Shown here one piece after another: positions 2,055-63,078 of a DNA stretch of 64,000 nucleotides (positions are counted from its first letter, which is position 1; the number at the start of each line of letters is the position of its first letter). Source of the stretch: Antennarius striatus (Eukaryota; Chordata; Actinopteri; Lophiiformes; Antennariidae); NCBI RefSeq assembly GCF_040054535.1, contig NC_090784.1, forward strand, positions 15,327,501 to 15,391,500, written 5' to 3'. Below the pieces are notes generated by a model, which searched no databases, was not told where the DNA came from, and saw only the letters and a program-made list of their open reading frames with translations. The position numbers and the translations under genes were made by a program.

Positions 2055-2655
2055 AAAGTTTCCACTGTATTAGACTGAGTTTGAAATTTACCGTCAATAA
2101 ACAGTTTTTACTTGTGTTGCACTCAACACATAATACTGTTAATGTGTACAAGTAGATCTACCACAGTCTAGAACACAGGTACCTACTTAGTTACCAAACA
2201 CTGGAGCTTTCTTTTACTATGAGCCCCTTCGTTGTTGAACTAACTTTTTATAGTTCAAAAATGAATGACATCATTTCCCTTCATTCATAAATAAATAAAC
2301 AAACATGTGGTGAGGAATACTGATGACCACGTTTTCTTTTTACATCAGCTCAACATGTCCTTAGTATTATTTAGGATGTTTCATAAAAAGTGAATGAAAC
2401 CCAGTGATATAATTTACTAAGGATCATAAACATCGATGTAAACATCATTAACACACAATCAATATCCCTTTCAGCTGCCTCCACCTCTACTGTCTGTGAG
2501 GAGATCAACACAGATCGTATCGCTTGCGTCTTCACAGGGACTAAATCAATCCAGGTGCACACTTAACTTTCTGAAACATAATTTAAAACCAGATTACTAC
2601 CTCAATGGCTGCAAGCAACTTTGTCATGCAAGACATGTTTTCCTAGCAGTAACAC

Positions 2656-5600
2656 TTAGAAATGTGCAGCCTTCAATTCTCCTCCATTGTCCCACGTGAT
2701 ACTGGGCTGTATGATTTTCTCACAAATGTTGAAGACAGAGGACGGACTCTCGGGTTGCTCCTGGTCAGGAAGCTGCCAGTCGATGAAAGTCAAATACAAA
2801 ACAGTCCCTATGACACCTCCAATAGGTGGGGCCACCAAGGGTACCCAGAACCAGTAGTTGTAACACCTGGAGAACAGACACCCACATTAAGAGAAATCAT
2901 TTTACACATCATAAATTTGAAGCGCAGATGCATATTTTCCATCCAAATAATCAATTTAATTTAAAAAAAAATATTTAATCACATTGACTCAACATGATAG
3001 AAAAATATTGCATTTAATTTGACCCCTTAATTTGAACTTGCATTAAAAGATGAACTCAAAATGTCTCTAGAAATTAAAATATTTAAATTAAATGCTTTGG
3101 ACACTCTAATTTTTTGTTCGCACATACAGACAGAGAGAAGGTGAAAAAAAAAAATCTGCGGCCAATATGATGTTGAGTCAGATATCATTAAGGTGTTGTT
3201 GACCTATCAGAGGAACAGTGATCTTTTGAGTAAGGATTCATTAATGTAGAAGAATTACACTAAATACAAAGTGTATTTAACAAGTGTACTGTATTTAACA
3301 GTGTATTTAAGCCAATGGACACACAGAAAAACCAGAACAGGATTCTACAGTCTTTAAAGAACAACATGTTACATCACATTCCTCTGATCCTGCAAACAGC
3401 CCGAATGTCTGATAATCCCTGGGGTAGGTGATAAGTGAGATACACAAGGTCAAAGACCTGCAGTAGTGGCCAACATTTTGACTAATGTTGACTTGACTAT
3501 GCAGCATCAGAAATTTCTTGATAAATTCATTCATTCATTCATTCTTTAATTCATTGGTTTTTTGTAACCACTTATTCTGTTTTGTGTCAATTTCGATTCA
3601 TCAGTTCCAATACACTGCACATTTTTGGTGGTGAAAGGAGGCAGGAATGAAGTACAGTATATAAAAGGAGAAATGCATTCTTATTTGTTAATGTGGAAAT
3701 TAATGTATTTGCAGTTCTGTTCATGTGTACTGTCTATTCCAGATGAGACACTTACGTGAAGACCTCCGTGCCCCAGCCTGCAGTCAACGTAAAGAGGCGT
3801 GGCCCAAGGTCTCGAGCAGGATTTATTGCTGCACCGCAATTACCAGACATTGACATAGAGATCCCCAGGACAATTGCAGCTACAATCGCAGGAATCAGCT
3901 TTTGGGGAGCAGGGGTGTTTCTCTTTTCATCCAAACCCATGATGCACAACAACAACATGGCAGTTCCCACAACCTAAAGAAAATAGAAATGCAGAAATTC
4001 CTCGAATGATGCGGCAGCTATTGAAGTACTGCTTAAAGTTCACACATTTATCCCCACTGACCTGGTCCAGGAAACTTCTGCCAACAGTCAGGTACTCTGA
4101 GGGATACGTGGCAAATATTGATGCTGTCTCATTTGGGCCATATACAGTCAGTACTCCTCCACTATAGTCCATTATAGCATCTGAGACAGAAACAAGCATA
4201 TTAGATGTAATTAGTTAGTAAAAACTTCAAGTGATAGTACAGGAGTCTCTAAAATGGCTTGGGTAACTTGTATATCTGTGAGGAGCTCTTTAATGCTGAC
4301 ATGCACAGATTTTGGAGCAACACGTGTTGCCTCGCAGGCAATTTCTTTCTGGAACATTCCACCAACACGATGCTGAGCCGCACCCGGCAATATTACAACA
4401 TGTTCTCATCATAAATGAGTGCTGGTACAAAATATTGGCATGGCTATTGAATGTTGAAGCCAAAGCTGACCATATCTGGGCACCAAAATTCAGCTAGGCT
4501 AATATCTAAATTGCACTTGCCCAAGGATGTCCATGTAATGATGCATTAAGGACAAAAACTTCCATGTAGATTTTTTTCATAACTTTCAACATGCCTTGTC
4601 GGTCTTGATTCTTTGTCATTATTATAACAAAACTGTTGACTGAGGCAATATATTGTGTGAGAAGAATGATCCTTTTCTCATAAGTCTCCATAGGATCAGT
4701 TGTTTTTGTAATCAGTGAAGAAAAGTTTAGGTTTAAGTCATTTCTACATTGACTTCCCTCTCCAAACCCATTCTCCATACAGTCTATGTTGGTTCATCAT
4801 GAGGCAGAGAACAGGACAGTGGAGATCTGGACATTTTGATGACATTTGGTTTATTAATTCTTGCCTATCAAGCAAGAATTAATAAATAGTGTACAATAAA
4901 TGTGTCATTTCGCAGGGATTTTTAGTAAATGTTGAAATAATATTTATCTTATTGTATTCAGCTGAATATAGGTCTTAAAGGATATATTCACATTTGAAAA
5001 AGTGGACTACTACATTCTTCTGGAATTGAGGATGTGTTCACCAAATCATCGATTTAATGACTTATATTATTAGACCTATATTTTTGTGCTCCTGTGTCAA
5101 AAATCAAGTGAATAAGATGTGAGAAAGACAAACCATAATAGACCAGGAAAACCAGTCCTGATGCCAGGTAAGCCCCCAGCAACTGCGAGAGACAGTAGGG
5201 TACCAGTCTTCCCCAGGATGCATGACCCGACACACAGAAACTCAGTGTTAAGGCTGGGTTCAGATGGGCCCCTGTAGAAAAGGTTAGACAAGTAGGGTGA
5301 GAAAGATGAATTCACATGTTATTTGTTGTCAAGTAGTTAGTCAGATTTTGTGCTTAATAAAGTATAAATAACGGCCCTGAAAAGTTGGCAAAGGACACCT
5401 TATGTTCTAAATCTGGAGTGCTCACATCAGTGAATGATGGCATTAACGAAAAAAATATAACTCAAAGTGTGAACAAAACATGATAATACAGCTGTTTTAT
5501 TTCATTGTATGTTGATCTCTCAAGGATGCAGGCTGATAGTGTTCTCCATGTGTCTAAAGATCATGTTGTGTCCATTTCAATTGATTCTTTACCTGAAATG

Positions 5601-7266
5601 CCCTTGGTGAGATACATAGCTGACATCACGCCCACAGAGAAGGCCATGTTGACTGACAGGAACTGGCCTTTAGTCTCTCTGCTTGTCTTCACCTGTGCTG
5701 CAGCAGAGCAGCCAAAGACCTTAAAGGCAAAGGTGGTGGAGAGAATGAAAGAAAACCCCAAAAGTCAGCAGAGATATTTACAGACTTCAGAGAAACAAGA
5801 AATAATCCATTCAAGAAAAAATTATTTATTCAAATTATTCATTATTAATGCAGACATTGAAGTTCACTTCAAATAAATTACAGGCAAAAGACTTTGAAAT
5901 TTCTTGCTTTCTTGAGATTGATTAAGTATTTAATGGTCATGCAATCTAATCATAAAAAATCTGAGGCTGTTAAAAGCTAATTAATTTCATTCACCTTTGA
6001 ACTTTGATTTTTTAACTGTCCACCCTTTATGTATATGATCGTAGAAACAACCTCTGTTAAGATTTGGCTGAACTTCACTTGACTAAATATTACCACACAG
6101 GCATTAAGGATTTCTCTGAAGATATCTATAACCCATCTATTAATATTGTTAATGATGGGTTCAGTGTGACATTACTGTGAGTTCTGCATCCTGATGAGGT
6201 AATTACCTGTTTTATAACAGTACATGTTCCAATAAAATGATGATGCATGTGAAGCTGCATGAATAATTTCTTCAATTCAGCATGCATCATGTAATGTATT
6301 TAAAAAAAATTTTAAATCTAGTTACATAATGATCAATAGACATTAATCTTCTCTTCAGGATGATGTCTTTCATAGGAAGTTGTAATTCTGCCAATGGTCT
6401 GTCCATAGCCTAGTTAACTTCAAGTAAAGTAGAAGAAGAGTAGAGACTTTTCAAGGATATTCATTCATTTTCTTAACTAGTTATGCCATTTGGGTCATGG
6501 AGTGGCTGAATCCTATCCCAGCAGATGTTGGGTGGGAGACAGGGTATGCTCTGATATGGCACCAGCTTATCACAAGACCACATGAAAGTCAAACACATTC
6601 CTGCCTATGGGAATTTATGATCATCCATTCAGCTTTACATTGCATGTTTTGTGGGGTGGGAGGAACTGGAGAACCCAGACGGAAAATACAAACCCCACAT
6701 AGAAAACTCCCTGCTCCCTACCCCTGTGGGGTACTTCCCAGATTAGATGCCAGCTCATCATGGGGTCACATGAAAGACAACCACTCACATCTACGGACAA
6801 TTTGGTGTCACTTATTCATCCAAACTGCATGTTTTTGGCGAAGGTAGGAAGCCGGAAAGCCCTGAGAGAACCTGCACAGATGTGTGGAGAACATGCCAAC
6901 TCGGACCTAGACCCTTTTTGCTGTGAGACAACAGCGCGGCTCACTGCACCACCATGCTGCCCCACATATGATATATGGAATTAAATCCAACACATATGAA
7001 CAAAATATTTCTCTGTTCTGCCTGTTTAACATATTTTAATCCTCAGCAATAATAATGATAATGATAATAATAATTGTATTTTCCGAATTCTTGTCAGGGA
7101 ATTGGAAAAAAATATTTTTGATTAAGTCAGTTAGCAGTGAACTTTGTCATAAAAAATCTCAAAGTCAAACAGTGTCACTTACCAGCAAAACGAACGTCCC
7201 TAAGCACTCAGCCATGCACTCTCGCACCAGAGCGTTCCTCACTCTCAGAGCACGGTGTGTCAACAT
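2656..7266 (-). CDS. aqp10: aquaglyceroporin, aquaporin-10 type
   Basis: This is a plasma-membrane channel for water, glycerol and other small neutral solutes. Coding exons on the minus strand are 7183-7266, 5593-5719, 5134-5271, 4062-4180, 3756-3973 and 2656-2866. Their phases agree and give 298 residues, close to human AQP10 (301). The start is the only in-frame ATG after an upstream stop. Both pore motifs are intact: GAHLNPA in exon 3, and NPARDLGPRLF in exon 5, whose Asp after NPAR marks the glycerol-transporting branch. The ETASIFATYP segment in exon 4 is typical of AQP9/AQP10, and the Asn just before it (NET) is a possible glycosylation site. AQP10 rather than AQP9 is inferred from the neighbours (C1orf43, SHE, CGN), which match human 1q21. 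Intron 1 holds a degraded interspersed repeat and intron 3 a perfect hairpin. Confidence 0.92.
4850..4886. repeat. perfect inverted repeat (15-bp arms, 7-bp loop)
   Basis: Arms 4850-4864 and 4872-4886 are exact reverse complements around the loop CTATCAA. The element lies in aqp10 intron 3. It is AT-rich and may simply be the relic of a small transposon. Confidence 0.8.
6457..6965. mobile_element. degraded teleost interspersed repeat, two partial copies in tandem
   Basis: The stretch matches the widespread fish repeat with wording like 'cctatcccagc...gagacagggta', then 'ggagaacatgcc' and an ending like 'cactgcaccaccatgctgcc'. I recall it as an L2-like LINE 3' region, but the family is not certain. 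The second half (about 6731-6962) repeats the order of landmarks in the first half (TATCACAAG-like core, CATGTTTT, GGAAGCCGGA), which suggests two copies or an internal duplication. It lies in aqp10 intron 1. Confidence 0.6.
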
Positions 7267-8771: not shown

Positions 8772-11700
8772 TTAAAAAGAACGATGTAACACCACGTTCA
8801 CAGGGCCATCAGGAAGTTTTCTGATCAAAGTCCAGGCCTCCAGGCGTCTCATCCCCACAACGCTCACACCATCAATCTCTAACAGCTCATCACCTGGAAA
8901 CACCTTGTCAACAGGGCCTCCTGAAAGAGATCAATCAACAGATGACTTTAAGGCATGTTTGTTTACCAAAAGACACCTACCTTTTGTGGTTATTATGTAG
9001 AATGTGTATACTGTCATGTTATTTAAATTAAGATGTTTTTGAAAAATCTGAATGAACACAGTTACAGATCAAGTTTCTTAAAAGCTAAAATTGAAATTAA
9101 TTATTTATATTCACTTATTTTTAGAAGATTGGGAGAAAAAATGTTTTAGGTAGTTAGTTATTACGTTTTTTCAACATGACTCTGATCGTTTATACGCATT
9201 GATCTACAAAGATTGTTTTCTGAGTTGAATTTTCGGCTTTTCCCTTCAGGGGTCGCCACAGCGAATTAGTTGCCTCCATCTAACCCTGTCTTCTGCATCC
9301 TCTTCTCCCACTCCAACTACCTTCATGTCCTCTTTCATTACATCCATAAACCTCCTCTTTGGTCTTCCTCTAGGCCTCCTGCCTGGCAGTTCAAAACTCA
9401 GCATCCTTCTACCAATATAATCACTATCTCTCCTCTAGACATGTCCAAACCATCTCAGTCTGGCCTCTCTGACTTTATCTCCAAAACCTCTAACATGTGC
9501 TGTCCCTCTGATGTTCTCATTCCTGAACCTATCCATCCTGGTCACTCCCAGAGAGAACCTCAGCATCTTAATCTCTGCTACCTCCAGCTCTGTCTCCTGT
9601 TTTTTCCTCAGTGACACTGTCTCTAGATCAAACAACCTCGCTGGTCTCACCACAGTTTTGTACACCTTTCCATTCATTTTAGCTGAAAGTCTTCTATCAC
9701 ACGTTCCATCCTGCCTGAACATGTTTCTTGAATACCATTAGAAAAACGTTCAAGTTATCAGCGAAGCTATGGGCCGTCCTTACTGAAGGTCTTGTAACTG
9801 AGTGGGAGGAAACAGCTTCCAGATATGTTGAAGAAACATTGATGAAGGCTTCAATACAGTTAAAGTATACAGGTAAACATTGTCTTACTTCGTTTTGATG
9901 TTATCATTCTCTATTTAATGTCAGTTTCCAAAAAAAGTACAAAGAAAAATAAAAATCAAGTTTTTGTCATTTTACTCAACTTTACATTTTGCCACAAGAA
10001 TTGGAATTGTAAAATAACTAACTGTTAAAAGCACCTAATAACATGTTACTGTACAAAATGTTTACAGTTCTTTAAGCTTGTAGCAACCCTGGTTACCCGC
10101 AACACGGAAGAGGATGCTGAAGATGAGACAATTCTTTCTGTACTATATTAAAAAATAAAATTTATTCATTTGTGAGTTTAAAATAGATTTGTATTAACCA
10201 AAAATTATTGAAAATGGATTGACATATAAAGTACATACAGAACTGGAAACGGCCATTTTCAGTTTAGCCTGCAGGCAAGTTAATTTCTTGCTGTTCGACT
10301 TACATCACGTCTCCTGGAACTAAATACTGACCCTGGAAGATCCGCTGTACAGTGAGAGGTCTGTCCTCCAGACTGGAGCCTGCACCTCCCTCCAGGCTGA
10401 AGCCCAAATCCCTGTTGATCTTCTCCAGGCGCACACAGACACGCTGGCCTGAGATATCAGAAAAAGCAGCAAAATAAAGATATAATTTATTATTTTTGCT
10501 GCTGTAGATACAGCGATGCCTATCAGAACTTTGGCAAAGTGTGAGCTCAAACCTGTATCAGCGAGCGGAGTTTGTGAATGTTGAGAATTTGTATCTGTTG
10601 CCCCTTTACATGCACTACTGGTCTTTCCCCTCTGTAGCACCACTACCCCCATATCCCGAGCCTTTGCTCTTCTCAGGACCCTTAGGGCCTCCCAATGGGC
10701 ATAGTCACACAGCGATGTGCCGTTGATTGACAAGACATTGTCCCCTGCCTTTATTGAGCCTTCCTGACTTGCAGCGCCTGAAGGAAACACCTTGTGAACC
10801 TGAGAACAGACATTTAGATGAAAATGAATCAATAAACTGAACAATGCATTGAAATGTTTTTAGGAGAAAACAGATATTTCCTCACAGTAACTGGCTTGTT
10901 CTGGTCCCGACCTCCTGCCAGGCTGAAGCCTAATCCTACTCCAATCTCTTTATGGAGAACCACCACCTGTACATCATTATAGTCCTACAAAAATAGAAAA
11001 AAATTGGAACAATGCTTTTCGTGCTATATCAGCCTTGGCAATCTGTTAAGGAGGATACATCATTTAACAGTAGAAGGTCTGTAGTGTAACTCTCTTTGCA
11101 TCAGAGTCATTTTCAATGTGTGTAGTAATATCAATAGCAGTTGTAATTCATTCAACTGCTATTGAAATTCCTAGGTCATACAGTAATTACATCAAGGTTG
11201 AACTAATACCAATAAAAGAAAGGGCAACTGGAATGCAAATGGACAGTACGACCAGATATTGTTGCATCAATGGCAATTAATTGCATGTAAGAAGTTACAG
11301 CTGTTTGCACCTGCAGATTGTTGTCCCCCAGGTTCCTGACCTCCTCCAGCAGCTTATCGAGCTCCTCAGTGGGCAGAACAGACACACATGAAAAGGCTGA
11401 CATGTCAGAGCTTATCGAGGCCGATCGCCGGCTTATAGACTGCCACTCATCACTGTCATTCTCTGACTCATAGTCCACTCCAGCAAAGTTACACAAGTCT
11501 GAAAGACTACAAAGATGAAAGAGTTGTGTTGGTGAAATAAAAATACAAACTTTTGGTAGAAATACCCCTATCAACCAGAAAGATAAATATGATTACCCAC
11601 CTGACGCTGAAGCTCTTTCGTTCTGACTGGCTCATGTTGCTGGTGATGGTCACTGAGGACTCTCCAGAGTCTGAATCATAGTTTGAATCTTCATCTTTCT

Positions 11701-14110
11701 CTGTACTGTCATCATCATCATCATCATCATCGTCCTCATAGTCATATTTACCATCAACATTCATCATTGTGTTCAAGCCAGCTACCCAAGCATGCAGGTC
11801 CAACACCGGCTTCTTCCTACTAGAATTGCCTGGATTGATATCTGGGGAGATGTGATTTGGAAAGTTGTCGTGGGACAAAGCTGCGAGGGGATCTGGGAGA
11901 GGTGGAGATTCTTGTTCTGGAGTCTTGACTGCTTGTGCAAGTACAAAAACACTTTCATTTTCATTGTCTGCACTAGAAGTGAAGCTACTTTCTTGATTAG
12001 TTAAAGTAAGGGGAGAGTTGACTGGAGTGTTTGTTGGAGTCTTGTCTTCATCACTGACAGGTGAAGGTGTTGTAGCCAAGACACCAGCTGAAGTATCATC
12101 ATAACTGGTTAATAGCAACAATGGTGGTCTGTTGGTAATCTTCTCAGGGCTTGACACTTTGGAGAAATCTGTTTCGTCTACGTGAAAATTTCTTTGTAAT
12201 CTTTGGGCTCCTCTGGGTAGTGCAACTTCTAGTGTACTCTTTACTAGACTGGGATATTTAAAAAAATCCACTGAATAATTACCACTGTCAATATTTTTTC
12301 CATCATTCTCAATCCATTCGTTCTTCTCTTGCTCTTTCTCCGTCAATCTTAGCCCAACCTCATCCACCGATAAGGATCTTTTTGATTCAATATTCTTATC
12401 AGGTAATGTCACTTTCCTTCCAGTTTTCTCACCTCCCTCCTCTCCTTCTTTTGATCTCTCCCATCTGCCTTTCAATTCACTTATTGATTTTGCAGAACCA
12501 CTCTTTTTGATACCATCGTGACTGCTGCTGAGTGGTGTTGGCACTGAAAAAGCACGCCTTGGCAACAGAAACTGTCCTGTAGTCAAACCCTGTGATCGCT
12601 GTGTTAGAGCCTCAAATTGGCTGATCTTATTTTTAACACTGGCTGTGGGTGTAATCGACCGCATATCTGGGAATTTCTTTCTCTCCATTTCCATTTTCTG
12701 TGGGCTTGAGTCGAACACATCTTCATCAGGAATGCTACTCCTCATTTCAGATTCTACTTTTGCTGCATCGTCTGTCCCTTTCTTTCTTTCCTGCTCTTTA
12801 AACCACCCCGTTCTTTCTTTTATCGTCTTGCTTACATCAAATCTTTCCTCTCCATGGTTTACTCTTCCCTGAACGTTACTGCCACTTGTTCCAGACAAAT
12901 GCGTCCAAGAAACTGTCCTTCCTCCTGTGTAAGTGTTTGGCTCAGAAGCTGCAGCAATTTGTCCTGCAGCCCTCTCAGATCGTATCCGTGCTGCTAAAGT
13001 ACACCTGCTCCTTGCTCTATCCAAAGACCTTGTGCCAATGTCCTCAAAGCCTCTACTCAATGGGGATCCTTGCCAGAACCCCATTGAGTATTTTTCCCTG
13101 GAGACGCTCATCCCTGGTGAATGAAAACTCTCAGAAGTGTCTTTTTTTGTAACTGTAAATGATTCTCTGTTTTTTTCTGGAATAAGGCTGCCTTTCCATC
13201 CTGATGCGAAATTCCGTGGGAAAGTTCCCCCAGCATATGACATCTCTGCTGTTACTTTTTTGGGAGAGTAACCAGGGGTGGAGAAGTCTCTAGTGTTGCT
13301 GTAATCCTTACCAAAGTCAACTGACCCATACAGCTTCTCAATTCGCTCCATTATACTCTGACCTCCCTTGGACCCTAATGAAGAATATCCCGTTGAATCT
13401 GAGACAGGTCCAGACCTAGACCTCAGCCTTGAGGGGAAGGACTGTCCCCTATTAGCTCTGTTCAAAGTCTGTCTTAACGGGTCGCTGTCTTGATCAGTAT
13501 TACTTGAATATACAGAGTTAATGACCGGAACTGAAGAAATCATAGTGCCCTTAGAGCCTTCAATGCCTGTTGTTCTTTCCTCAAAACCACCACCCTCTTT
13601 GCTGTCCCATCCTCTGCTGCTTGACAACATGACAGTGTCAGTTTTTCTGCGACAATCAGGGCTTCTTTCCCCAGATCTCAAATCTAAACTCTTACTTCTA
13701 CTTGGTAAGTTGTATCTTCTCCATTCTGTTCTACCACGGCTCTCTGATGGAGGGTTAAAGCTTCCACTTCTATTAGTGACAAACTCTGTGCCATTCTTGG
13801 TAGACATTCTATTAGCTGACATTTCGATATCCTCATATTGACCACCGCGACTCCAACTCCCCAATCCAGAGAATGTGTGATCCTCCAGATTGATAGTGCC
13901 ATTTGTTCCAGTGTGTGTCCCATTTCTTTCTCTTTCTTCAACTTTGGCAGTGCTCTGCTTCTTGTCTTCTAAATAATTGTTGGGTTTCCGAAAACCTTGC
14001 CTTCGAGTAAGACTGTTTGAGGGAGAGTTAGCAGATTGGACAGTGAAGTACACTTCTGTTCTCTGCTTGTTGTTGTCACTTGATGGAGTATGGAGTAAAG
14101 AAAAGTCCAT
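8772..14110 (-). CDS. pro-interleukin-16-like protein with two C-terminal PDZ domains
   Basis: Coding exons on the minus strand are 11601-14110, 11311-11506, 10886-10984, 10553-10799, 10332-10448 and 8772-8920, in consistent phase, giving 1105 residues. Residues 1 to about 836 come from one 2.5-kb exon and are mostly low-complexity Ser/Thr/Lys/Glu sequence, with an Asp run near the end (around 11700-11735). PDZ1 starts near residue 905 (carboxylate loop GLGFSLAGG) and PDZ2 near 1018 (LGFSLEGG). The order around PDZ1 follows human pro-IL-16: SFS..LS.L, a [12 protein letters not shown] helix like [26 protein letters not shown], then V...VFP.G.ASQEG and LSING.SL. Human pro-IL-16 has two further N-terminal PDZ domains, which are not found here. 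The ATG at 14110 is the only in-frame Met after an upstream stop; 5' untranslated exons probably lie upstream. PDZD2 is the other family with this ending, but the linker match favours IL16. Role: probably a scaffold; a cytokine role is untested. Confidence 0.85.
9225..9725 (-). mobile_element. 5'-truncated non-LTR retrotransposon (LINE), 3' end
   Basis: The minus strand encodes the C-terminal end of a LINE polyprotein: a [16 protein letters not shown] segment, then [12 protein letters not shown] and RLRWFGHV. In another frame this is followed by [17 protein letters not shown] and an ending in CGDP. At least one frame break separates the two parts, so the copy is dead. The 3' tail with 'aggggtcgccacagcg' is common in fish LINEs. 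I would place it near RTE, without certainty. It lies in the last intron of the IL16-like gene, in the same orientation. Confidence 0.75.
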
Positions 14111-15773: not shown

Positions 15774-15867
<94 letters not shown>

Positions 15868-16422
15868 TCTCTCTCTCTCTTTCTCTCTCTCTCTTTCTCT
15901 GTCTGTCTCTGTCTACCATTTCCTGTCTGAAGGGAGAGGAAATAAGGAAATACTGTATTGTACACATGGTATATATATCTTTAAACAGAAAACACAAATG
16001 ACTTTTCTTCACAGGCAAACCTCAAGCAAACTTTGGTCTAATCGTCAAGGCTGAGCAAATATCAGAATTCGTAGCAGTGTGCCTTTGAGCAATTTAAATA
16101 AGGACAAGAGACATCAGAGATAATAGAGGCTGAGGAACAACCAAAGAGATAAACATTCACACATACAGTACATACATATTAATCGAGCTCAACTTCAGAA
16201 AAATGTGTTGACAATCTGGGCTCAACAATAATGTAGTGAAGGAAAAACGTATCTGACATTGCTGTTTGATTTTATCTGTTCAGAAGAAATTACATTTGTG
16301 AGGACATTCAGGTTACAGGGTGGGAATGTGGGCAAAAGGCCTTTGACTCACAGAAGTACAAGGAGAAAGTAATATATTAAATGAAAGAAAAACAAAAGTA
16401 CTTACAGTTTAGGTTGGCTCAT
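14111..16422 (-). other. probable 5' untranslated exons of the IL16-like gene
   Basis: Three minus-strand splice signals fit untranslated leader exons: an acceptor (CTTACAG) before 14200, which would make the big coding exon extend to 14200; a donor before 15451 (GAGAAG then GTAAGG), with a possible acceptor after 15515; and a donor before 16406 (AACCTAAACT then GTAAGT). The last exon contains a short ATG frame (16422, MSQPK). Joined in frame, this small frame does not read into the main coding frame, so it would be an upstream ORF. Exon limits are tentative. Confidence 0.4.
15775..15911. repeat. (AC)n followed by (TC)n microsatellite
   Basis: About 90 bases of pure AC followed by about 45 bases of CT-rich sequence. 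All frames through it are artefacts. Confidence 0.95.
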
Positions 16423-17230
16423 ATTCCTACTGCTGCTTTTTTGAACTCAAACTGTCTTCTGTTGAAGGAGAGAAATGGTATTTGAAGAGTCAATATACTG
16501 CAAGTTTTGAATGCAATGAGTCAGACATATTGATGAAGGCAAAGTCGTAGGATTTGAATGATCTGATCAATGTTCAGCTATGCAAACAGAGGGCTTGTAG
16601 TTTGCATAGTGTCCTCAGGACTAAGATAACTGTCTGAGAAGGCTTCGGTGTGACCTGCAGACACCCACCCTTGTTCCTGACAGAAGAATGGGACTGAGTG
16701 TCTCTGCAGGATGGGGACAAATGCCTCTGTTACTCACACAGACACACTGGTTCTACCATTCTCTGGGCGTAGGATTCAACAACAGTGTCATGAGAAATGG
16801 TAACTTGTGGTTTTTAAAAGTTCAGTAACTAAAATATTCAAAATCAAAAAATGACAGAATAAACTACAGAATCATTGCATAATTTAAGGTCGTAAATGAC
16901 AATTACTTTATCTTTCACATTTGTTGATTTGTTTGATGGGCCACCTTCAACAGCAGGTGGCAGAAGAGGCTATGGACGAGTCACCTGACACGGAGACTCT
17001 ATTCACTGATCACGTGACAAACCAGGAAGCCCTCAGTCCGTCCGGCGGCACAGCGAGAACACATTGACTTCAGGGGAAGTCCTGTGGTTGATGTTATGTG
17101 TTTACTGTCGCGTTCGCGTTTTTTAAGCACAACCAATTAAAACCTACTGTAAACAATTGAAATATCTACTGTTTGGACGTCATTTCGCAGGCGTTGAAAG
17201 TTGTTAAACCCGGGCAGATTTTTTTAAAAA
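16423..17230. promoter_or_regulatory. shared promoter region, IL16-like gene and C1orf43 homologue
   Basis: The two genes diverge from this roughly 0.8-kb interval. The part nearest C1orf43 (16960-17230) is CpG-richer and has TCACGTGAC at 17010-17018, an E-box of the USF/TFE3-TFEB kind, plus a CG-rich stretch around 17105-17122. No TATA box is obvious. Which gene each element serves is inference. Confidence 0.45.
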
Positions 17231-19470
17231 ATGCGGAATGACTCTCTTCTGTCAAGCATCAACGTGGTGTTGGTTATGGCCTACGGAAGCCTGGTAAGTC
17301 CATTCCGTTACAGAACAAACCCTGGCTGTTGGTGGACCATCGTTTCTTGTAAGAGACGGAAAACTACATTTGGATAGAGCAACAGAAGCACAGAACAAAA
17401 AAGTAATTAAAAACTAACTAATTATAATTATTAATAATTATAAAGACAAAAGTAACTATATAAATAAAACCCTTTTCTAGACCTCCACCAAGGGAATTTT
17501 CAGCTTCCCCCTTTTGTCACTCCATTGAAAAGCAGAAGTCTTGTGTTTGACTCTTATCACTTTGGTTTTTTATTACAACTACAGTACATTTCAGTATTAA
17601 CATTTCTGTGGAGTTATTGTATTTTATCATCTCACTGTAGGAAACATGTGCCTGATATATTTAAACATTGTGGATCACTTTTGACGTTTATATATGATAG
17701 GTCTTGGGGTTGGATATGTCACTCACTACTTTTTCCATAAACACTGAAATTATTTTTAATGAAGTTAACTGTTATAACATTTGTAATATTGATGTCTTTA
17801 TATGTTTGGGTTTAAAATCTGATTGGGCGTCTGCTTCATTTTATGTCTTTAGTACTTTCACTGTTGTCCATTATGTTAGTATTTCATTGATGGTTTTGAA
17901 AGAATACAGTATGTGTGTGATTGATGTTTTTTGATTTCTTTGTTTTGGAGTAGGCCATTTTGGTTCAGACAGTAAACCAGAGCTGGAACTGATGCCGGTG
18001 CCAGAATTGATTCTTTACTGTCTTCTAGGTGTTTGTTTTGCTCTTCATCTTTGTAAAAAGACAAATAATGCGATTTGCCATGAAGTCCCGGAGAGGACCA
18101 CATGTTCCGCTTGGACACAATGCGCCTAAGGTAGAAAGTACACATTTGCATTGAACCAGAAGTGTGATGATGCTCACTGTATTGCTGATGAACGATTATA
18201 TTAATGCTAATGGTTTTTGTGCTGAAGGAGTTGAGACAAGAAATTGAAGTTAAACTGAGCCAGGTCCAGAAAATCCACTTTGAACCTCGTCTGCTATCCC
18301 TGGATGATGATCGTTTAAAGCACGGACTGCAGTCTGGTTAGAGGAAAACATACACACCAGTTCTGAAATATGTGCATTTGAGTTTTTCAGTATTCTGTAT
18401 CTTCAAGTATCATAACAAGTATTTTTTTAGGTTCCTATAACTACCTGTACAGGATGAAAGCATTAGATGCCATCAGAGAAACTGGTAAACCTTTTTTTCC
18501 ACCAATCTTTATTTGTCATTGAATCCTTTCACACTCCTAAATGGTACCTCTCCTCTTGATCAATAGATCTCCCTTTTCGTGATCTGGGAGGGACATCCTC
18601 TGCTGTGACGGGTAAAAGACTTCGGACCTGGCTTCTACATCTACGAAATTCCCACTGCATATTCCAGGATGGTTTAAGCTCCCTCATTGACACAGTAATG
18701 GATGGATACAATAAAGCACGGCATGGTGCAGAGGTCCTGAGATGTATTATCTCTCAGACATACCAGGATATTTTGACGATGTACTACACACCTCCACATT
18801 CAATATCAGGAAAAAATTGTTTACTACAAATTAATTAAATTTTTTTACATTTGTTCTTTACAGAACCAAACAATGCCTTGTAGAGTATAGTGAACGCTCA
18901 TTTAAATATGCAATCCATTTTTTCAGGTGTTTGGGCTGTGTTCTTGACTGCTTTAAGTCTTTGCTCATATATGATCAATGATTGTATGATTAACATGATT
19001 ATCATTTTAATTAAGTAGACCCTCCATCCAAATGCACTCATATCTCCTCTGTTTCCTGTTTTTATCCACAGACTTTTGGTGAAGCAGAATTTTTGAACTA
19101 CCACAGAGCTTTAACTGAGCTGGCCTCCGTGTAAGTAAGCTCAACTTTTCCTCCCAGCATTCACAAAGCAGCTTTTTGCTAATGCTAATCCTATCCTGGA
19201 ATGTTAATTATGCACTGAGAACAAATCCATTTCTGCTTTCTTTGTTTAAGCGTCAAGTCCAATAGTAGCAGCGGCAGCTCTCCGAGTCAGCACCACCTGT
19301 CTGCAGCCAAAGACCTGACCAGCACCACAGAGGCTGCGAGCTCCTCCTCTTCGCCCACCCAGACTACCTATCTCACGTCTCCAATGCAGCAGTGCAGCAA
19401 ACGCTCCAGACACTTCCTGGAACTGAAGAATTTCAAAGACAACTACAACACATTGGAGAGTTCATTCTGA
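17231..19470 (+). CDS. c1orf43: C1orf43 (NICE-3) homologue, single-pass membrane protein
   Basis: Coding exons are 17231-17293, 18029-18130, 18228-18336, 18431-18484, 18567-18733, 19072-19130 and 19251-19470, all in phase, giving 257 residues against 253 in human. Near-identical blocks include the N-terminal membrane segment (SINVVLVMAYGSLVFVLL, about residues 8-27), the basic KRQIMRFAMKSRRGPHVP region after it, YNYLYRMKALDAIR, and the C-terminal RHFLELKNFKDNYNTLE. The human protein is reported at the Golgi and mitochondria and as a factor in phagocytosis; its biochemical activity is unknown. The donor after exon 5 (GTCCTG) is weak, but it is the one that keeps the frame. The gene is head-to-head with the IL16-like gene and tail-to-tail with tuft1. 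Confidence 0.95.
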
Positions 19471-36418: not shown

Positions 36419-39400
36419 TTAACAGGAGCTCGTCTGGAGGTTGCTCTCGGTGAGGATGGAGGTGATGGTGGTGGGGTCATAAACGCAGTCTTCATCAGAG
36501 CTAAGGGCGGATGAATCCAAAATGGGGCGCGTTGCTGCACTGGTTTTTCTCCTGTGACGTACAATAATAATATATTAACAACACCAATCCTTGTCACCTT
36601 AAAAGTTGAGACACATTTCCTTTTTCCCCCCCCCATAAAGCTTACAATTGGTTACAGTTCTCCCTCTGCAGGCACAAAAGGGAACAACATGCATTCCCTA
36701 ATGGTATGCATGAGTCACCTGCTGTTGTTTAGTTTAATACAATAACTTCTCACACTTGAGTGACAAGTGTAAAAACATCACCATGTGAAATACTGCACCT
36801 CAGGGAGTCATTAAGAATCTCCACCAGGTTAAGTACTCAGGAATCTGGGTTCAGAAGGGAAGGACTTACTTGAGTTCAGTTTCTAATACTGAAACTCTGG
36901 TCTGCAGGGCCTCCTTGAGCTCCATCTGTTCCTCCATGTCTCTATGAACCTTTCTCCTCAATGCATCTACTCTCTCCAGCTCCGTCTCACCTTCATCGAC
37001 CTGTCTCTTCAGAGCCTTCACTCTCAGAGCGAGCTGTAGCACACATTAAGCTTATTAGCGTTTAGCGCTGATTCAGTTCCATGTTGGAATATTATAAAAC
37101 ACAAATACCTGGTCTCTTTGTTCATTGTGCCCAAGTCTCTCCTCATCCAGCGTCATGGTGAGTTCTTTTAGTTTCCTCTCCAGACGCCGTTGAGCCGCCA
37201 ACACAGTGTTCTTCTCCCTTCACATATACAAAAAAGGAACACAGCACAAGCCATGACAGCATGTTAATGAGTAATATTCCAATTATATCAACTTTTGCCA
37301 AAATGCTCTTGGGCAAGACATTTGCTACCTCACTGTTTACACGAAGAAGCTCTGAAGCCATTCAGGCCCAGCTTTACTGAGTTGAAGTGAAACAAAAAGT
37401 CAAGAAGAAAAGCTAAGTAAAAGCTAGAGAAAAAGTAAAAGAAAAACTAGAAGCCAAGCATGATGGAAAAAAATTAAATGCTGGAGCCTAAAACGTGGTT
37501 ACTGGAACATGTTTTAAAATATTTGCTATGAAGAACGAGTTAACTCTCGAACAGAAACATTTCTGACACTTAATTGTCAATTAAACAGGAGAAAAGAAGA
37601 TGTAAAGGCTCCAGCAGGTTTCCCATCTATACCTTTCCTCACTTCGGAGACGTTCTTCCAGATCATGGATCTTGTTCTCCAGCTGGGAAACACCTGCTGT
37701 GGAGCGAGACTGGCCCTCCATGTCAACAACACGACTCCTCAACTCCTTCAGCTGCAGGGACAGACATGCAGGTCAAACGAGGTGTTTCGGTGTGTGCGTG
37801 TGTGTGTATGTATGTGTTTACATGTCTCTCCATGGCGTTCTTGTCAAGCTCCAGGTCCTGTTTGGAGGATCTCTCTTGCATGAGTTCAGAGCGTAGCTGA
37901 TCGATCTGGTCTCTGCTTCTGGTCACTCTATCTGTCATCATCTCCACGCTGCTCTTCTCTTCATCCAGCTCCAGCTCCACGCGCTTCAGTTTGTCCTGAC
38001 AGACAAGATGAGATCATCTTTCACTCTTTGAAAGAAGACTGGATGAGCCTCCTGTCGTTGCAACATGGAAGCTACTGAGAGAAGTAGATCTGCTGTATTA
38101 AGAATTAAACAGGTCTCTTTTCTAATCACTTAATAGAACCTTCATAAACACAAAATAAATATGAGATATGCACAAGCTGTTATGCTAGTGATGCATGTAT
38201 AGCAGAACTGCTACAGAGAGCTCTGTAGTCATGGTTTATTCTACCAAATCACCAGAGGGACATATCTTACCTCTAGAATGCGAATCTCCCGGGTTTTGTC
38301 ATTATAGCTGCTTTTGCTGGTCTCTACCTCTCCCTCAAGGTGGCGTATTCTGTTGGTCAGAAGCTCTTTATCCAGCTGGTGATTGTCTTTCTCCTCACAT
38401 ACAAGAAGCAGCTCTTTCTTCTGTCGTGATATCTAGTTAAAAGTTGTTATACTTTTAGTCAGTAATGCCAGGGTGAATGTTCTGAAATGGCTTTGTGTCA
38501 TATGAATAGTAGTAAGTTCAAAAACCACTGAAAAAGTTCAGAACATCATCTCACAAAAGAAAACAAAAACATCCACCTCTTCTTCCAGTCTCCTTAGATT
38601 TATATTATTCCTTTCCAGTTCGCTCTGAGCGTTGTTTCCATGACGTTGTGCCTCCTGCATTTCCTTACGTGCCCTGTCTTTATGCTCTTCCAGCTGAAGC
38701 TTGAAAGCCTGCGCCTCCTCTCTGGAGGTCGCTAACAAAGAATCATACTGAAAGAGGAGACCGAATAAGGAAGAGGACAAACAACGAGGGTAGTGTTTTG
38801 GTACTTTGATTCCTATATTGGTTACTGCAAGCTGTAGAGGCCTTCATTTGTTTGTGAAGATAAAAAAGGATCTCCATCTTACCTCTTTGTTAAGTTTCTC
38901 CAGAGCACTCTCCTGCTGTCGTTTGGTCTCCTCCAGCTGGTTGATGGTCTGTTTGAGCATTTCATTCTCCTTCTCCGTGTCGTCCAGACGCAGATTGAAG
39001 TCCCGTTGCTCCTGGCTCAGTCTCGAAGCTTTTCGCTTGGCTTCATCCAGCTCAGATCTCAGCCCTCTCACCTCAGTGTGTAGGGCGAGCTCTGCCTCTG
39101 AGCTCTCTGTAGTGTTGGTCTGCAGCTGAGCCTGAGGAAACCATGAAGGGCAATCATCTAGTGCATTCTGGGCAACCATAACAGATCGTGCTGTGGGACA
39201 TAATGGGACCTACCTCTAACCGCAAGAGTTTCTCTTTGAGGCGTGTGTTTGCCTCCATCTGCTCCTGTTGAGTATCTTGGAGTGATTTCAAATCCGTCTG
39301 AGCTCTACTGAGACGAGTGTTACTCGCCTCCAGTTCCTCCTCAGTGATTAAAAGCTTCTCCTTGAGCTGGCTAACTTCCCTACGTGCATCTTCAAGCTTC

Positions 39401-42400
39401 TGTTCCAGCTCTGAGACGACAGCTGGGTCTGGGAGCTAAGAGCAAGGAGACAAAAAATGGTTTTGATGAAAAATACAAGAGAAATTATGGAGATGATTTG
39501 TGAAATACATATCACTATAGCCTCCATGACACCTAAATAATTTCTTCCGCGTTTTCTTTTGCATCAACACCATATGATGTCACCAACCCGTTTGTTTTTC
39601 TCCTGAGCCTTAGCAGCATCTCCTTTGACCCTCTGTATTTGGTCCTTTAGCCTGTTGATCTCATACTTTAGTTCTGCCTCCTGGGTCTGGTGAGTTTTTT
39701 TTATGGCGATAACCTCCATGACCTTCTTGTCTAAGTCTGTCCTGTGCTTCTCCACCTCTGACTTAGCTTTCTGTAGATCAGTGCTGTATCGCTGAAGCTC
39801 CTATAAAGATCAGTTGGCATCATTAGAAGTTCAGTAGGTCAGGTCATTCACTCGTGCACTGGACAACATGTTGAGCTGAGTATTTGTTTACTCCACCTGC
39901 TTAAGAATCTCAGTGTGGCTCTGATCTGGGATCTGTTGCTTCATGTTTCTCACTTTCCCCTGAAGCTCCTTTACTTCGTCCTCCAGCTCCTCCTTTTCCA
40001 GACGAGCTTGCAAGATGCTGATAAAAAATTATCAAACACAGCTGACCCAAACAACAACATATGAAAGTACAGTGTTCCCTCTCTTATTTGCGCTTCACGG
40101 TTTCACTACATCGCAGATTTTTAAAATTATATATATATATATATTATATATATATATATTGTCCTCAATGAGATGTAAGTTTCATCTCATCGAGGACAAG
40201 GGAGAGAGCGAGAGATGAGGAGCAAGTGACTCCCATGAGCTGTAGTCACGTGACACCGTACACACATGCTACGGTCTCACGTAAAGTGAGATTTTCGTTT
40301 TTTGCGGGTGGTCCACATTAACCGCGAGTAACGAGGGATTACTGTATTGCTTCATTGTCTGATTGGCAGGTTTTGGATTGTGGAGGTAAATCGTCACATT
40401 TGAGCTACATTCACTTTGATGATCCAATGAGCAACAATTTAATGCTCAATTAACAGAAAAAAAAAATCAGCATTTTCTGTTACCTTAGAGCAATGAGATG
40501 CTTTCTACACTACATTCTACAAAATGTTTCACCTAAACAGAGAAATTCAAGACCAGCCACACCAGTCTATTTTATATCTCTGGTCTGTTTCAAATTGACC
40601 ATAGGTGTGAGTGTGTATGTGCGTGTTTGTCTGCGTCTGTGTGGCTCCGCGGCACACTGTCAGCACTTTTGTCAAAGTCAAGGCCCGCGGACCAGAACTG
40701 GCCCGTGACAAATTATTTATGGCCCCCTGGATGATTTTTAATTACTGTTAGAACTGGCACGCCAGCCACATCCGCCCACTGGTGTTTTGCACGCAGCGAC
40801 ACTATATTCCCCACAATGCAACGGTAGCGGAAGTCACTGCAGCGCAGCAAGCGGGCTTTGGTTTCATTGCTCATCAGCAGTGAAAACGGAGGTTGAATTT
40901 AGCTACTCCCCTCTTCAAAAATGGGTAAAAGGAAGGTTGACGCTGAGAGTAGGGGGTTTCAAGCCAGGTGGGAGTCAGAGGGTATGTTTTTTACATTAAA
41001 AAAATTTTTTTTGCACAATAATGCATTATGATTGTGCATGCACAATACTATTATTAGGCATGCAATAATGCAGTTTGAGTTTGTAATGCATGCAATTTCA
41101 TTTATGCATTTATCTTGATATTAAGGAACATATTTTGTTTTTGAAGAACATTTACTTTTTTGCTGTTTGCTTGTTGAAAATGTTTCTCCTTGAAGTTAGT
41201 GACAGAGCCATAACAAAAAAGTGCTTTATTCATTTAATTATTAAATAATATACACTGTATTAGCTCTTGTTTCAATAGGCTATGTTCATTTCAGTATTTT
41301 GACACCCCTGGTATAAAGTTTTCATCATTTTCTTGTCTTCTTGCTCCTCCACTTTTCCTTTTCCTTTTGTCAATTTTGTTGGTGAGAATCAGTGAGTCAG
41401 ATAGAGACAACAGGAATGTGTCAGGAACGAGTCTGCTCCCATTGAAAGCTGGAGCTGGAGGTATACCTCCAGTTTCAAGTTTCTAGTCAACCATGGGGGT
41501 TTTGGTGTGGATGACCTTGGATCTATGGTCAGACGGTTGTTAGCACAGCTAGCCAAATCTACAAGTCTAACAATCTACACAAAAACGCTGACTCTCACAG
41601 TGTTTCAGGGGGGCTGCGTGGGTCTCTGACAGAGCGGGATAGAAACATTGACCAGGTAGAATAAAAGAGAAAAGATTGACACGCATTAACATTCCAGCAA
41701 GTGCAAAGAGAAACTATGAGAAGGTGACAGAGCTATGTGCAAATGAGCCTTGGAATCCAAAACTGTGGATAGGTGACAAAAAATACATTTTGTGAACAAC
41801 ATAGGTTAGAAAAAACTAACTCTTGTTTGGTCACTCGAAGCTCATCCCTGGCGTTGTGGAACTGCTCCATCCAGTGGCTGCTCTCATCTCTACAGTCTTC
41901 CAGCTGCTGCTGTAGGGACCGCATTGATGCATTTACACGCAACCGCTCTGCCTCAATCCCGGCATGAGACTGAAACAGGAGAAGAAATGAGAAAATGTTT
42001 AATGACCCCATTTTACACAAGTCTGTATGGCTGCGTTAAGTATCTGAGGGGCAAATGTCTACATCTGACCATGGTCAAGTGTTTTTAATCATATTCACTG
42101 AAACTAAATCTGTAGGGCACAGATATAATCTAAAAAGCATTCATGTCTCCTGTCAAAATATTCTTGAAAAGCCAATGAAAGAATATTAAAGTGAATGAAC
42201 GTTGTAGTGATGAATTGAATGCAAAAGTTAATGACTTTTGTTCACAGGATGATTTTATCATATTCAAAACATATCTGTGGTGATACTACTACCGTGTTCG
42301 TGCACACACCTGAGACACCTGCTCCATGCTGCCACGTAGCTTCTCCATGTCGGTACTGTACTGCTCTCGAAGCACCTCGATCTCTTTGTCGTGGCTGGTC

Positions 42401-45400
42401 ACCTCCTCTTTCAGAGCTCCTTTGAGGGCCGTTAGCTCCCTCTCTTTGTGCCTCAGTGCCTCCTCCAGCTTCTGTTTCAGCTGGCATACCTCCATCAGCT
42501 GTGCCTGAAAAGACATTAAGTCCTGCAAAAAAGGTGAATATGTGTTATTGACTTCATACTTCTGAGTACACAGCTGCAAAAATAACTATGACTTAATACT
42601 AGGTGCAAGTTAATCAAGATTTAAAATTGTGTTCTTAAAAAATGTGGGGCGAGTTGGCTCCTCTCTCGTGTCTGTGTGCATGAGTATGTTTCTGTGATAC
42701 CGTCTTATTGACAGTCTCTCTTCTCAGTTCATCCTGAAGCTCAGCCAACTGGTCCTCCATTCCCCTTACCCGTGCCTCCGCATTCTCTCTATCCATTCGT
42801 AACTGAATCAGCCTGCCAGGAAAAGAGGACACACACATACAGTAGCTACAATTTTCGATTCAAACGACATGTGATAACGTTTAAAATTGCTGATTTTTTC
42901 ATGAAATTGTGAAATGTCTGCATCTCTTTCACTCAAGACCACCAGCTCTTGAAGACAATGAGTGTTTTCAGTCCAAACACTTCTCAAAACTCAAGGACAT
43001 CACCATAGATAATGTGCAATTACCCAATTGATGATCTACTCACATTCACAACAGAATGCATGTTCTCAAGCATGTTCTCACTGTTCTCAAGCACACCCAC
43101 TTCTTTCAGAAGTTAGCTGATAAACAACTGTTACAGGATTTTGCTTTTATAAGCGCTGGAAACTGTTCTGAGATTGTTGCAGATTGTATTGACAATGGTG
43201 ATAGCAGGGACATTTGCACTTTCTAGTTTCTGTTTGCATTCACAACGCCAACAGAAAGCTGAAGTGATGTCAGGTAGCCAGCGCTTTGAATGACTAAAAA
43301 CAACAACAACATGACAGACGTGTGCATGCTCTCGGGTCCTCACTCTGACTGTGTTTCGTTTAACTCTTTCTTCTTCCGGTCTAGCATCTCTCTGAGCTGC
43401 AGATTTTCCTCCAGACAAGACTCCAGCTCAGATTTCAGAGTGGGATCACAGTTGCTGATAGAGTCCTACACAAAAGCAGGCATGATGAATAAATGAGAGC
43501 AGTGAAACATTAGACATCAGGCACCTCTGGTCACATCAAAAGGGTTTCTTTGGAAAATGTTAATTTCTTGCATTTACCACCCAATCAATAGGCATGAGGG
43601 ATTAGGTTCTTAAGAGCCATTAGAGATTAGAGCTGCCCACCTTCCTAACCAACATATAATGAGTTATTATTCAAGTTAGATTATTCTGTGTGTGCCTAGG
43701 GGCTTTAAGGATTAATCTGAGGATTAATCTGAAGCACACTCCGAAGTACCCCTCTCCCATTAGATTATTTAAAAAGACAGAAGAACTCTTCAGGCAGTTT
43801 CCAACCAACAGTGAATTCCTTCACTTGGGAGCTGGTGCTCTTGTTTTCAAGGACACTTTGGGTGAGTGTTTATGTGTGGCACTGGAGATGCTCTATGTAA
43901 TCAGAGCTGATTAAAATGCAAGTTACTGAATCTTGACAGCAGCTAATTCCAATCGGCAAAGTGAATAGAAGGAAGTTTGGTGCATCAGCCAAACAAATTA
44001 GAATAAATCAAAATTTGTCGTTTACTTTAAAATGTATCCTTCTGGGCATTGTAAAATGACAACATTCTATGTTCTGGATATACAGTATAAATTAGTTTAA
44101 AGGGGAACCGAACTGCATACAATGTCCTTTTTTACCTTACTTTAAAATCAATAAGTGTTTTAACCATTGTACAGAGAACTAAAAACTTTTAGCACTGATA
44201 ATGAAGTCACATTTCTATTTCTGTTTTGCTTACCCTTCCTTTCACCTTCAGTGCACTTTGTAGATCGGCCAATTTTCTTTCCAGTTCCCTCTTCTCTCTC
44301 CTCCACTCTTCATGGGGTCTTTCTTTGGGCTGTCGAAGAAAATGATAGGATGGATAGTTTCCTTCTGTTTAATTCTTGATTTACAATACAGGACTTGTAG
44401 TACAGGGACAGTAATGGACAAACCTGCAGATTCTGAATCTTCTGACAGATGACCTTGACTTTGTGCTTCGTGATGACTTCACTCTCATTGGTACTGCAGG
44501 AAGGAACACAAAACATTAGTGTGAATGTAATCTTGCATGATATCTGGTTACTTGTGATCATAAAACAAAGTTACATTGTGCTGCAAAAATAATAAACATC
44601 CATACCCCTGTCTCAGGATGTTGTATATAGTCTGCATGACCTGCTCCTCCTCACTACTGGTCTCTGCACTCGGCCCCTGGTCCAGCAAAAGGTCAGGGGT
44701 CACCTTGAGACATAGATCAGAAAACTGCTCTTGCAATGTTGAATGCTTTGTAACATTTGGTGGTCACTTAGGCAGGTGTAATGTCCACCTAGAAAATTTT
44801 TTACCCTTACTTGTGCCTCACTCAGATTGGTCTGTGGTGTCTCCATAGCGACATACTTCTGTGTTGAAGTCCACTGATTAACAGAGGGTCCAGGTAATTT
44901 CGTGACAGCACCCTGGCTTCTTCCCATGGTGCTGTGCGTTGAAGATGGCGGTGAGGTGTAGGGGTTTGGAGTGGGGAGGGGAGACGTAGCTCTGGGTTCT
45001 TGATACGCAGGAGGGAATCCTCTCTGTTGGCCTTCACTGACAACGCCATCAAACCTGTTAATTATTCTGCTGACAGGAGTCTGCCTCTGACTAGTGAGAT
45101 GAGCGGTTTGGTGAGGAGAGTCAGAGTAGGACTGACTACTCCTCCCAGACCCGTTGAGCCCTGCTTTGGATGACCCATCCCATGTATTCCTTTCCATGTC
45201 GCCTCCTCTACCACCAACACCCCAGACATGCTCTCTCTCCCCTCTTATCCCAATTCCTCCATCCAGATTCCCATAACTACCAGACTTCCCGTCTCCTGGA
45301 GGCCTGGACAGACAAAAATCCTCATTGCCTGCTCCTCGCTCTCCATCTCTCTCTAGCAACGAGCCGTGGGATTGGGCTCGTCGTAATGCACCTCCCTGCC

Positions 45401-45722
45401 CCCCTCCTCCACCTACATCTGCCCCCTGTGATCCTGGTTCTGCCTTCTCTCTCCTCCGGGGAAGACTACTGTAACCAGAGTGGTACTCAGTTTTGAGCTG
45501 GACTCCATACGAGTCCCCTTTCTCTCCGTCCTTCAGAACAACATACGGCTGGCCAGCGATGCCTTGCACCCTGACTGCCACGCCATATTTGGAGGCAATT
45601 TGAGGCTTTGTCTTGGGGTAGGGTCCTGACTGGCCCCCACCACTGTCGCAGAGGTCATTGATGAAGCGGATCTGGACACCGTGGTCCACTGGGGTCTTGT
45701 GACCTGAAGATGCTGTGTTCAT
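36419..45722 (-). CDS. cgn: cingulin, tight-junction coiled-coil protein
   Basis: Nineteen coding exons on the minus strand: 44811-45722, 44606-44703, 44424-44493, 44234-44329, 43344-43465, 42701-42812, 42310-42522, 41821-41969, 39897-40017, 39588-39800, 39214-39435, 38883-39131, 38577-38747, 38271-38432, 37822-37995, 37633-37751, 37109-37217, 36870-37033 and 36419-36551. All phases fit, giving 1202 residues; human cingulin is about 1200. The globular head (about 1-340, mostly one exon) carries [10 protein letters not shown] near residue 14, in the ZO-1-interaction region, and [18 protein letters not shown], both typical of cingulin and paracingulin. A long Glu/Gln/Leu-rich coiled coil follows (about 370-1150). 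The tail ends [19 protein letters not shown], the conserved family C-terminus. It acts at the cytoplasmic face of tight junctions, binding ZO-1, actin and myosin. Introns hold a Tigger-like MITE and a hAT fragment. Confidence 0.96.
40070..40344. mobile_element. Tigger/pogo-like MITE (Tc1/mariner)
   Basis: A 275-bp element flanked by TA on both sides (40068-40069 and 40345-40346). The ends are inverted repeats of the form CAGTRNTCCCTCNTTAYT-GCG, the Tigger-type terminus. It has no coding capacity. Inside are an (AT)n run (about 40128-40160) and a hairpin at 40161-40197 with 15-bp arms, one mismatch and a 7-base loop. It sits in a cgn intron, about 50 bases upstream (in gene sense) of the exon at 39897-40017. 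Confidence 0.75.
40661..41310 (+). mobile_element. hAT-family DNA transposon remnant
   Basis: The left part has the CGGCCCGCGGACC-like wording of hAT (Charlie-type) ends. The right end reads TTTTGACACCCCTG, the inverse of CAGGGGTGTCAAA. At 40921 an ATG opens [20 protein letters not shown], the characteristic N-terminus of the fish hAT transposases annotated as GTF2I-repeat-domain-containing protein 2-like. The frame closes after about 38 residues, so only a start fragment remains. No clear 8-bp target duplication is seen. It lies in a cgn intron, antisense to the host gene. Confidence 0.7.
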
Positions 45723-49662
<3,940 letters not shown>

Positions 49663-63014: not shown

Positions 63015-63078
63015 ATGGAAGGCGGGCTGACGCCGCTGCTGCTGACGACGCTGCTGCTCCTCGCCATCACTGCGGGAG
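63015..63078 (+). CDS. first coding exon of a secreted or membrane protein (partial, runs off right edge)
   Basis: ATG at 63015 in an ACGATGG context opens MEGGLTPLLLTTLLLLAITAGG, a clear signal peptide. It is cut by a consensus donor (GGGAG then GTGAGTT) in phase 1. A CpG-rich segment with CGACGTCAC (a CRE-like site near 62874) lies just upstream. By comparison with the human neighbourhood of SHE, the candidates are CHRNB2 (nicotinic receptor beta-2) and IL6R. Both have a signal-peptide first exon, and the exon here is too short to choose. The rest of the window to 64000 appears to be intron 1, with no further exon recognised. Confidence 0.65.

Follow-up and report, generated by a model that had tools for sequence, protein, structure and literature searches.

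An IL16-like gene in a 1q21-type block of Antennarius striatus, probably a third member of the IL16/PDZD2 family

Introduction

IL-16 is a cytokine of odd origin, a PDZ scaffold that is released by caspase. The 15q, 1q21 and 5p13 regions form a set of duplicated blocks; the human order at 15q25 is IL16-STARD5-TMC3, and PDZD2 and GOLPH3 are neighbours at 5p13. Human 1q21 holds C1orf43, UBAP2L, HAX1, AQP10, SHE, and CGN, with the first four in the order AQP10-HAX1-UBAP2L-C1orf43, and to our knowledge no gene of the IL16 kind. Here, we describe an IL16-like gene of the fish Antennarius striatus that is flanked by aqp10 and C1orf43, in a 64,000-nucleotide stretch that also contains cgn and she (hereafter, the window; positions 15327501-15391500 of contig C9, NC_090784.1, in a 548-Mb assembly of 42 contigs). 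The gene is intact, and we consider it probable that it is a third IL16/PDZD2-family member, a copy from an early-vertebrate duplication kept in a 1q21-type block, with a product that would serve as an intracellular scaffold.

Cleavage of human IL-16 by caspase-3 is described in two papers (PMC1488832, PMC12171437). The former reports RRKS, residues 106-109 of mature IL-16, as essential to CD4 binding; the latter attributes two additional N-terminal PDZ domains to the IL16 long form, and places IL16 at 15q26.3. A list of human PDZ domains includes IL16-1 to -4 and PDZD2-1 to -6 (PMC7138185). Salmon gill and a salmon gill epithelial cell line are reported to contain the transcript and protein of some “pro-interleukin-16-like” paralogue (PMC10616884). 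By title or abstract start, no paper listed in searches of an open-access library was found to have a third IL16/PDZD2-family gene as its subject; a database entry for the gene described here is likely to be an automatic “il16-like”.

Gene Model and Protein

The interval 8772..14110 of the window, in which the initial annotation had recognized an IL16-like gene, can be given as an exact six-exon model. On the minus strand, the gene extends from its ATG at 14110 to a stop codon ending at 8772; its six coding exons, separated by five introns that are each GT...AG, encode 1105 residues:

11601..14110, minus strand: exon 1, ATG and 836 codons; no Pfam domain; acidic run close to the 3' end
11311..11506, minus strand: exon 2, SLSDL motif and EEL.KL.EEV helix; placed by splice sites and phase and by alignment to il16 on contig C1 and to a stretch of human IL16
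10886..10984, minus strand: exon 3, 5' half of the first PDZ (IL16 PDZ3 equivalent), GLGFSLAGG
10553..10799, minus strand: exon 4, 3' half of the first PDZ and the inter-PDZ linker
10332..10448, minus strand: exon 5, 5' half of the second PDZ (equivalent of IL16 PDZ4, mature IL-16), LGFSLEGG
8772..8920, minus strand: exon 6, 3' half of the second PDZ; C-terminal end LHRSF, without an RRKS tail

This is a real, ordinary-looking, intact protein gene. The first coding exon accounts for 836 codons of the longest open frame, which has 889 codons; the maximum over 60 first-order Markov copies of the window is 233. Exon 1 may be preceded by a non-coding 5' exon. The N-terminal 835 residues comprise 14.6% Ser and 22.5% hydrophobic residues (vs. 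32.6% hydrophobic in the tail), and to judge from the sequence this part is probably disordered. Pfam returned nothing besides the PDZs for the whole 1105-residue protein at E<=1, and no signal peptide was seen in exon 1 on inspection by eye.

Within the last intron, open frames on the minus strand at window 9249-9737 resemble the polyprotein tail of a retrotransposon without long terminal repeats (non-LTR); no Pfam family was found there above the cut-off. A long TG/AG microsatellite occupies window 15755-15910, about 1.6 kb upstream of the ATG.

PDZ Domains and Family Membership

The last 270 residues contain two PDZ domains (Pfam PDZ, E 5.6e-23), and the EEL.KL.EEV helix lies directly before the first of them; the comparison of this helix with its human counterpart covered a single stretch of the latter. 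Human IL-16 is the closest match for both domains in phmmer comparisons with the PDB: the top single-domain match for the first PDZ is 1x6d (E 3.7e-25), and 1i16 (E 7e-23) and 5fb8 (E 1.5e-22) are the sole chains listed for the second. DLG4 (2xkx) ranked second for the whole query (E 3.7e-23) by adding up three weaker domains, each of which falls on the first PDZ. None of the 27 sequences at E<=1e-9 is a PDZD2 chain, so PDZD2 was no competitor in this comparison. The closeness to human pro-IL-16 that had been noted for this 270-residue tail is upheld in both PDZs, and the helix is in the place that had been given for it.

The gene has the two-PDZ tail of the IL16/PDZD2 family, matching PDZ3 and PDZ4 of IL16, and the intron positions and phases within the PDZ pair are common to this gene and to the genes on contigs C1 and C3 described below. 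The six-PDZ layout of PDZD2 was not found, since both Pfam and a home-made PDZ profile, which covered 2154 open frames of 20 or more codons across the window, yielded two PDZs only. With the same profile, only four half-PDZ exons appeared at E<=1, and no exons for PDZ1 or PDZ2 of the IL16 long form were found in the window. Five pattern matches in viral contigs included no confirmed relative.

Related Loci in the Genome

All 53 candidates from a genome search with the 270-residue tail were scored, giving 43 matches. Twelve of these were read as belonging to the IL16/PDZD2 family (five in the window, five on C1 at 18.745-18.762 Mb, and two on C3 at 0.92 Mb), and the remaining 31, read from the listing as genes for other PDZ proteins, were left aside. 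A PDZ family search of the genome, in which 150 of 419 candidates were scored and the window's own exons went unlisted, is unusable for counting family members; 14 stretches chosen from its table led to the gene on C1, and 2 plus 20 more led to none. The C3 locus was reached via the tail search.

The C1 gene comprises an exon resembling PDZ2, a big exon, PDZ3, and PDZ4; the big exon contains GPPVAPKPSWFQQSL (GPPVAPKPSWF) and DPWVRLS, both of which are stretches of human pro-IL-16. Downstream of it is stard5 (top of two PDB matches, human STARD5, E 4.3e-12), followed by a TMC gene (Pfam E 1.2e-15); neither two of the six frames of the next 10 kb nor a TMC-like piece gave a Pfam family. Because of its pro-IL-16-like exons, and because the stard5/TMC order is that of human 15q25, the C1 gene is called ordinary il16. 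The IL16 place in the 15q25-type block, beside STARD5/TMC3, is thus occupied by the C1 gene and not by the IL16-like gene of the window. A second il16 gene in a 15q-like block of the same genome, for which the initial annotation had proposed a check, is therefore present, largely in line with its prediction, and the contig also carries an aquaglyceroporin, a weak cingulin relative (E 0.0084), and an MTMR10-type gene. The big exon of C1 il16 had no tblastn match in the window at E<=1. The IL16-like gene has a short look-alike of one stretch of that exon, SIKQKINSFE, which is not claimed as homology.

The C3 locus has a split PDZ pair of the same layout as the IL16-like gene, and a further PDZ exon, 25 kb upstream, matches DLG4 and InaD-like best in the PDB. 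Genes of the golph3 type (six matches; seven of seven candidates scored) are all on C3, at 1.91 Mb and about 1 Mb from the PDZ pair, and on C15. We infer that the C3 locus is pdzd2-like. In this locus (C3:921800-926800), the last PDZ falls in two frames at a G run and the final exon stops early (at about 2736-2850 and 976-1131 of the locus), which would reflect either an assembly indel or gene decay in this fish.

Duplicated Blocks

Alongside the IL16-like gene, the window contains the following genes:

~2600..6000 (approximate), minus strand: aquaglyceroporin aqp10; Pfam MIP, E 4.1e-14, pieces joined by hand
17228..19467 (approximate), plus strand: C1orf43 (NICE-3); Pfam NICE-3, E 2.9e-64, exons joined by hand
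38847..45785 (exons within this range), minus strand: cingulin (cgn), named from sequence; 65% relative on C14
50938..57180 (approximate), plus strand: she; first coding exon and SH2 exon (E 5.6e-11)

For cgn, the first exon returned no Pfam family, and in another exon the sole matches were to coiled coils and stayed under the cut-off. Downstream of she, an open frame on the plus strand at window 62901-63299 has a signal-peptide-like stretch and no Pfam family; because SHE is next to IL6R in human, a cytokine receptor gene may begin here with its first exon.

The start of cingulin matches the window and C14 (E 1e-23, at 2.104 Mb), and weakly C1 (21.48 Mb, 41%, E 0.0084, in an open frame of 581 aa) and C4 (7.78 Mb, 43%, E 0.093). 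Matches to the she exon are restricted to C9 and C14 (on C14 at 2.094 Mb, 47%, E 1.1e-17). Aquaglyceroporin genes with a common exon layout are present on C9, C1 (21.59 Mb), and C4 (7.77 Mb), and a further MIP gene (aqp10) is on C14 at 2.158 Mb, beside cgn and she. A 3-PAP/MTMR10-type gene is located on C1 at 21.78 Mb, as the single match from four candidates. The 1q21-type block thus seems to have its two teleost copies on C9 and C14, and the 15q-type block its own on C1 and, on weaker evidence, C4. Of the 15q partner pairs that had been named for the neighbours (AQP10/AQP9, CGN/CGNL1, SHE/SHF), the first is represented on C1 by the aquaglyceroporin and the second by a weak cgnl1-like match, and for SHE/SHF no partner was seen, the she exon matching C9 and C14 only.

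No row for an IL16-like gene on C14 was returned by the genome search with the tail, and neither the tail nor the big exon of the IL16-like gene had a tblastn match at E<=1 in 12.4 kb of C14 ending with aqp10. In that interval (C14:2146500-2158900), exons just upstream of aqp10 seem to resemble ubap2l and hax1; one stretch gave no Pfam family. The presence of the IL16-like gene and C1orf43 on C9 vs. ubap2l- and hax1-like exons on C14 possibly reflects complementary retention after the teleost duplication.

Origin of the Gene

An unrooted quartet of the IL16-like gene, C1 il16, the C3 gene, and human IL-16 (PDB) was evaluated under two models and with two data sets; the C3 last PDZ was cut at the second of its two frame breaks, and X was entered at the first. 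The best arrangement joins the IL16-like gene with C3 against C1 with human IL-16 (resampling of estimated log-likelihoods, RELL, 0.71-0.76). Identities in PDZ3/PDZ4 are 61/60% for C1-human, 56/52% for IL16-like-human, 56/49% for human-C3, 55/52% for IL16-like-C3, 51/50% for IL16-like-C1, and 51/47% for C1-C3; a separate three-row alignment gave 53% for IL16-like-human and 59% for C1-human in PDZ4. The tree weakly favours an old split, and the approximate equidistance of the IL16-like gene from human IL-16 and the pdzd2-like gene fits a third branch. The initial annotation had read the gene as the 1q21-side ohnolog of IL16, which synteny supports and sequence weakly so; because the gene is about equally close to both relatives, “partner of IL16 and PDZD2” is the safer wording.

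We therefore propose that the early vertebrate genome duplications would have left one family copy in each of three blocks, namely the IL16-like gene in the 1q21-type, il16 in the 15q-type, and pdzd2 in the 5p13-type, and that after the teleost duplication (3R) the IL16-like gene would have survived in only one of two sister blocks, C9 and not C14. The main argument for an origin older than 3R is one of position: a copy of il16 made at 3R should lie on C4, and the IL16-like gene was found on C9 only. Several observations weigh against this proposal. The cgnl1-like matches, those on C1 and C4, are weak; the she exon gave no shf-like match in the genome; no 3-PAP gene was found on C9, where one is expected, or on C3 (one match from four candidates); and no golph3-type gene is on C9, where a 1q21 member is expected, among the six matches from seven of seven candidates. 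The pdzd2 label of C3 was reached by elimination, with a golph3-type gene 1 Mb off and the PDZ exon 25 kb upstream as a candidate part of the same gene, and the PDZ5 equivalent of C3 likewise matches IL-16 best in the PDB. The quartet of the IL16-like gene with C1 is not rejected in any test (approximately unbiased test, AU, 0.27-0.32), and that with human IL-16 is rejected in one of four (AU 0.046-0.117). As to function, the scaffold role is drawn by analogy, and RRKS is also absent from C1 il16, so that its absence is no distinction of the IL16-like gene. The weak cgnl1 and missing shf and 3-PAP matches do not lower the probability that we give the ohnolog reading, since its main supports are the position of C1 il16 beside stard5/TMC and the pairing of C9 with C14.

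An origin within teleosts, by duplication of ordinary il16 at 3R or later and transfer to the 1q21-type block, would agree with IL-16 being the closest PDB match and with the unrejected grouping with C1. We consider this improbable: C4 (albeit through a weak cingulin match), and not C9, is probably the 3R counterpart of the il16 block, the C9 block has a sister of its own in C14, and C1 il16 is nearer to human IL-16 than to the IL16-like gene. Judged by position, the latter thus does not resemble a teleost copy of il16, by which the ohnolog reading gains support. Slightly less probable still is a shortened and relocated pdzd2 duplicate instead of an ohnolog of equal age; such a duplicate would suit the favoured quartet and the identity to C3, but an unrooted quartet implies no nesting inside pdzd2, human IL-16 is equally close to the IL16-like gene, and there are two PDZs only in the whole window. 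The protein tree that had been called for, here with four sequences, leans toward the grouping with C3 and leaves that with C1 standing.

That the gene is a third vertebrate IL16/PDZD2 member, retained by ray-finned fishes in the 1q21-type block and since lost from mammals, as one list of human PDZ domains may indicate (PMC7138185), is a more tentative proposition, which we hold at below even chances; together with the lack of RRKS in fish il16, it would suggest that intracellular PDZ scaffolding was the ancestral role of the family, and that the IL16 line gained CD4-directed cytokine activity later. A third member together with il16 and a pdzd2-like gene in one genome lets one ask which IL-16 traits are old (PDZ tandem, Trp in the last PDZ) and which are recent (CD4-binding tail). 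Such a member would also fill a gap in the 15q/1q21/5p13 set.

Predicted Function

The product would be an intracellular scaffold in which a long N-terminal part, probably disordered, is followed by a PDZ tandem at the C-terminus. The peptide groove of the first PDZ looks normal. In the last PDZ, the Trp of an EAW motif is kept; it aligns with residue 99 of human IL-16 (1i16), a Trp that causes poor peptide binding there. Because this Trp is kept, the second PDZ is probably a weak peptide binder and would instead be a structural or protein-surface module.

By analogy, an intracellular scaffold is the most likely role, one to which we give somewhat better than even chances, and it is unlikely that the product acts as a CD4-directed cytokine once released by caspase; the scaffold is favoured over the cytokine because PDZ1/PDZ2 and RRKS are absent. 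That the gene acts like IL-16, as a precursor cut by caspase-3 to release the last PDZ as a CD4 or leukocyte ligand, is suggested by the similar tail architecture, and by Asp residues (GATD, PLAD) in the inter-PDZ linker, the region of human IL-16 cleavage. The chain, however, lacks RRKS and stops two residues past the HR aligned with the end of human PDZ4, and inspection by eye recognized no canonical caspase-3 site in it; we regard an IL-16-like action as unlikely. The fish il16 on C1 is likewise without RRKS at the end of its last PDZ, which reads VIRSRGSS (5840-5935 of the C1 locus).

Comparison With IL16 and PDZD2

The IL16-like gene resembles IL16 (human 15q, and il16 on C1) in its long N-terminal region, the helix, and two C-terminal PDZs with 50-56% identity; it further shares with C1 il16 the split-exon layout of the PDZs, and with human IL-16 the Trp aligned with 1i16 residue 99. 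It differs from IL16 in location, lying in an aqp10/C1orf43/cgn/she block instead of beside stard5/TMC, and in having neither PDZ1/PDZ2 in the window nor an RRKS tail, the latter being absent from C1 il16 as well. With the pdzd2-like gene on C3, it has in common the C-terminal PDZ pair, the intron positions, and 52-55% identity, whereas PDZD2, in the list of human PDZ domains (PMC7138185), has six PDZ domains against two in the IL16-like gene.

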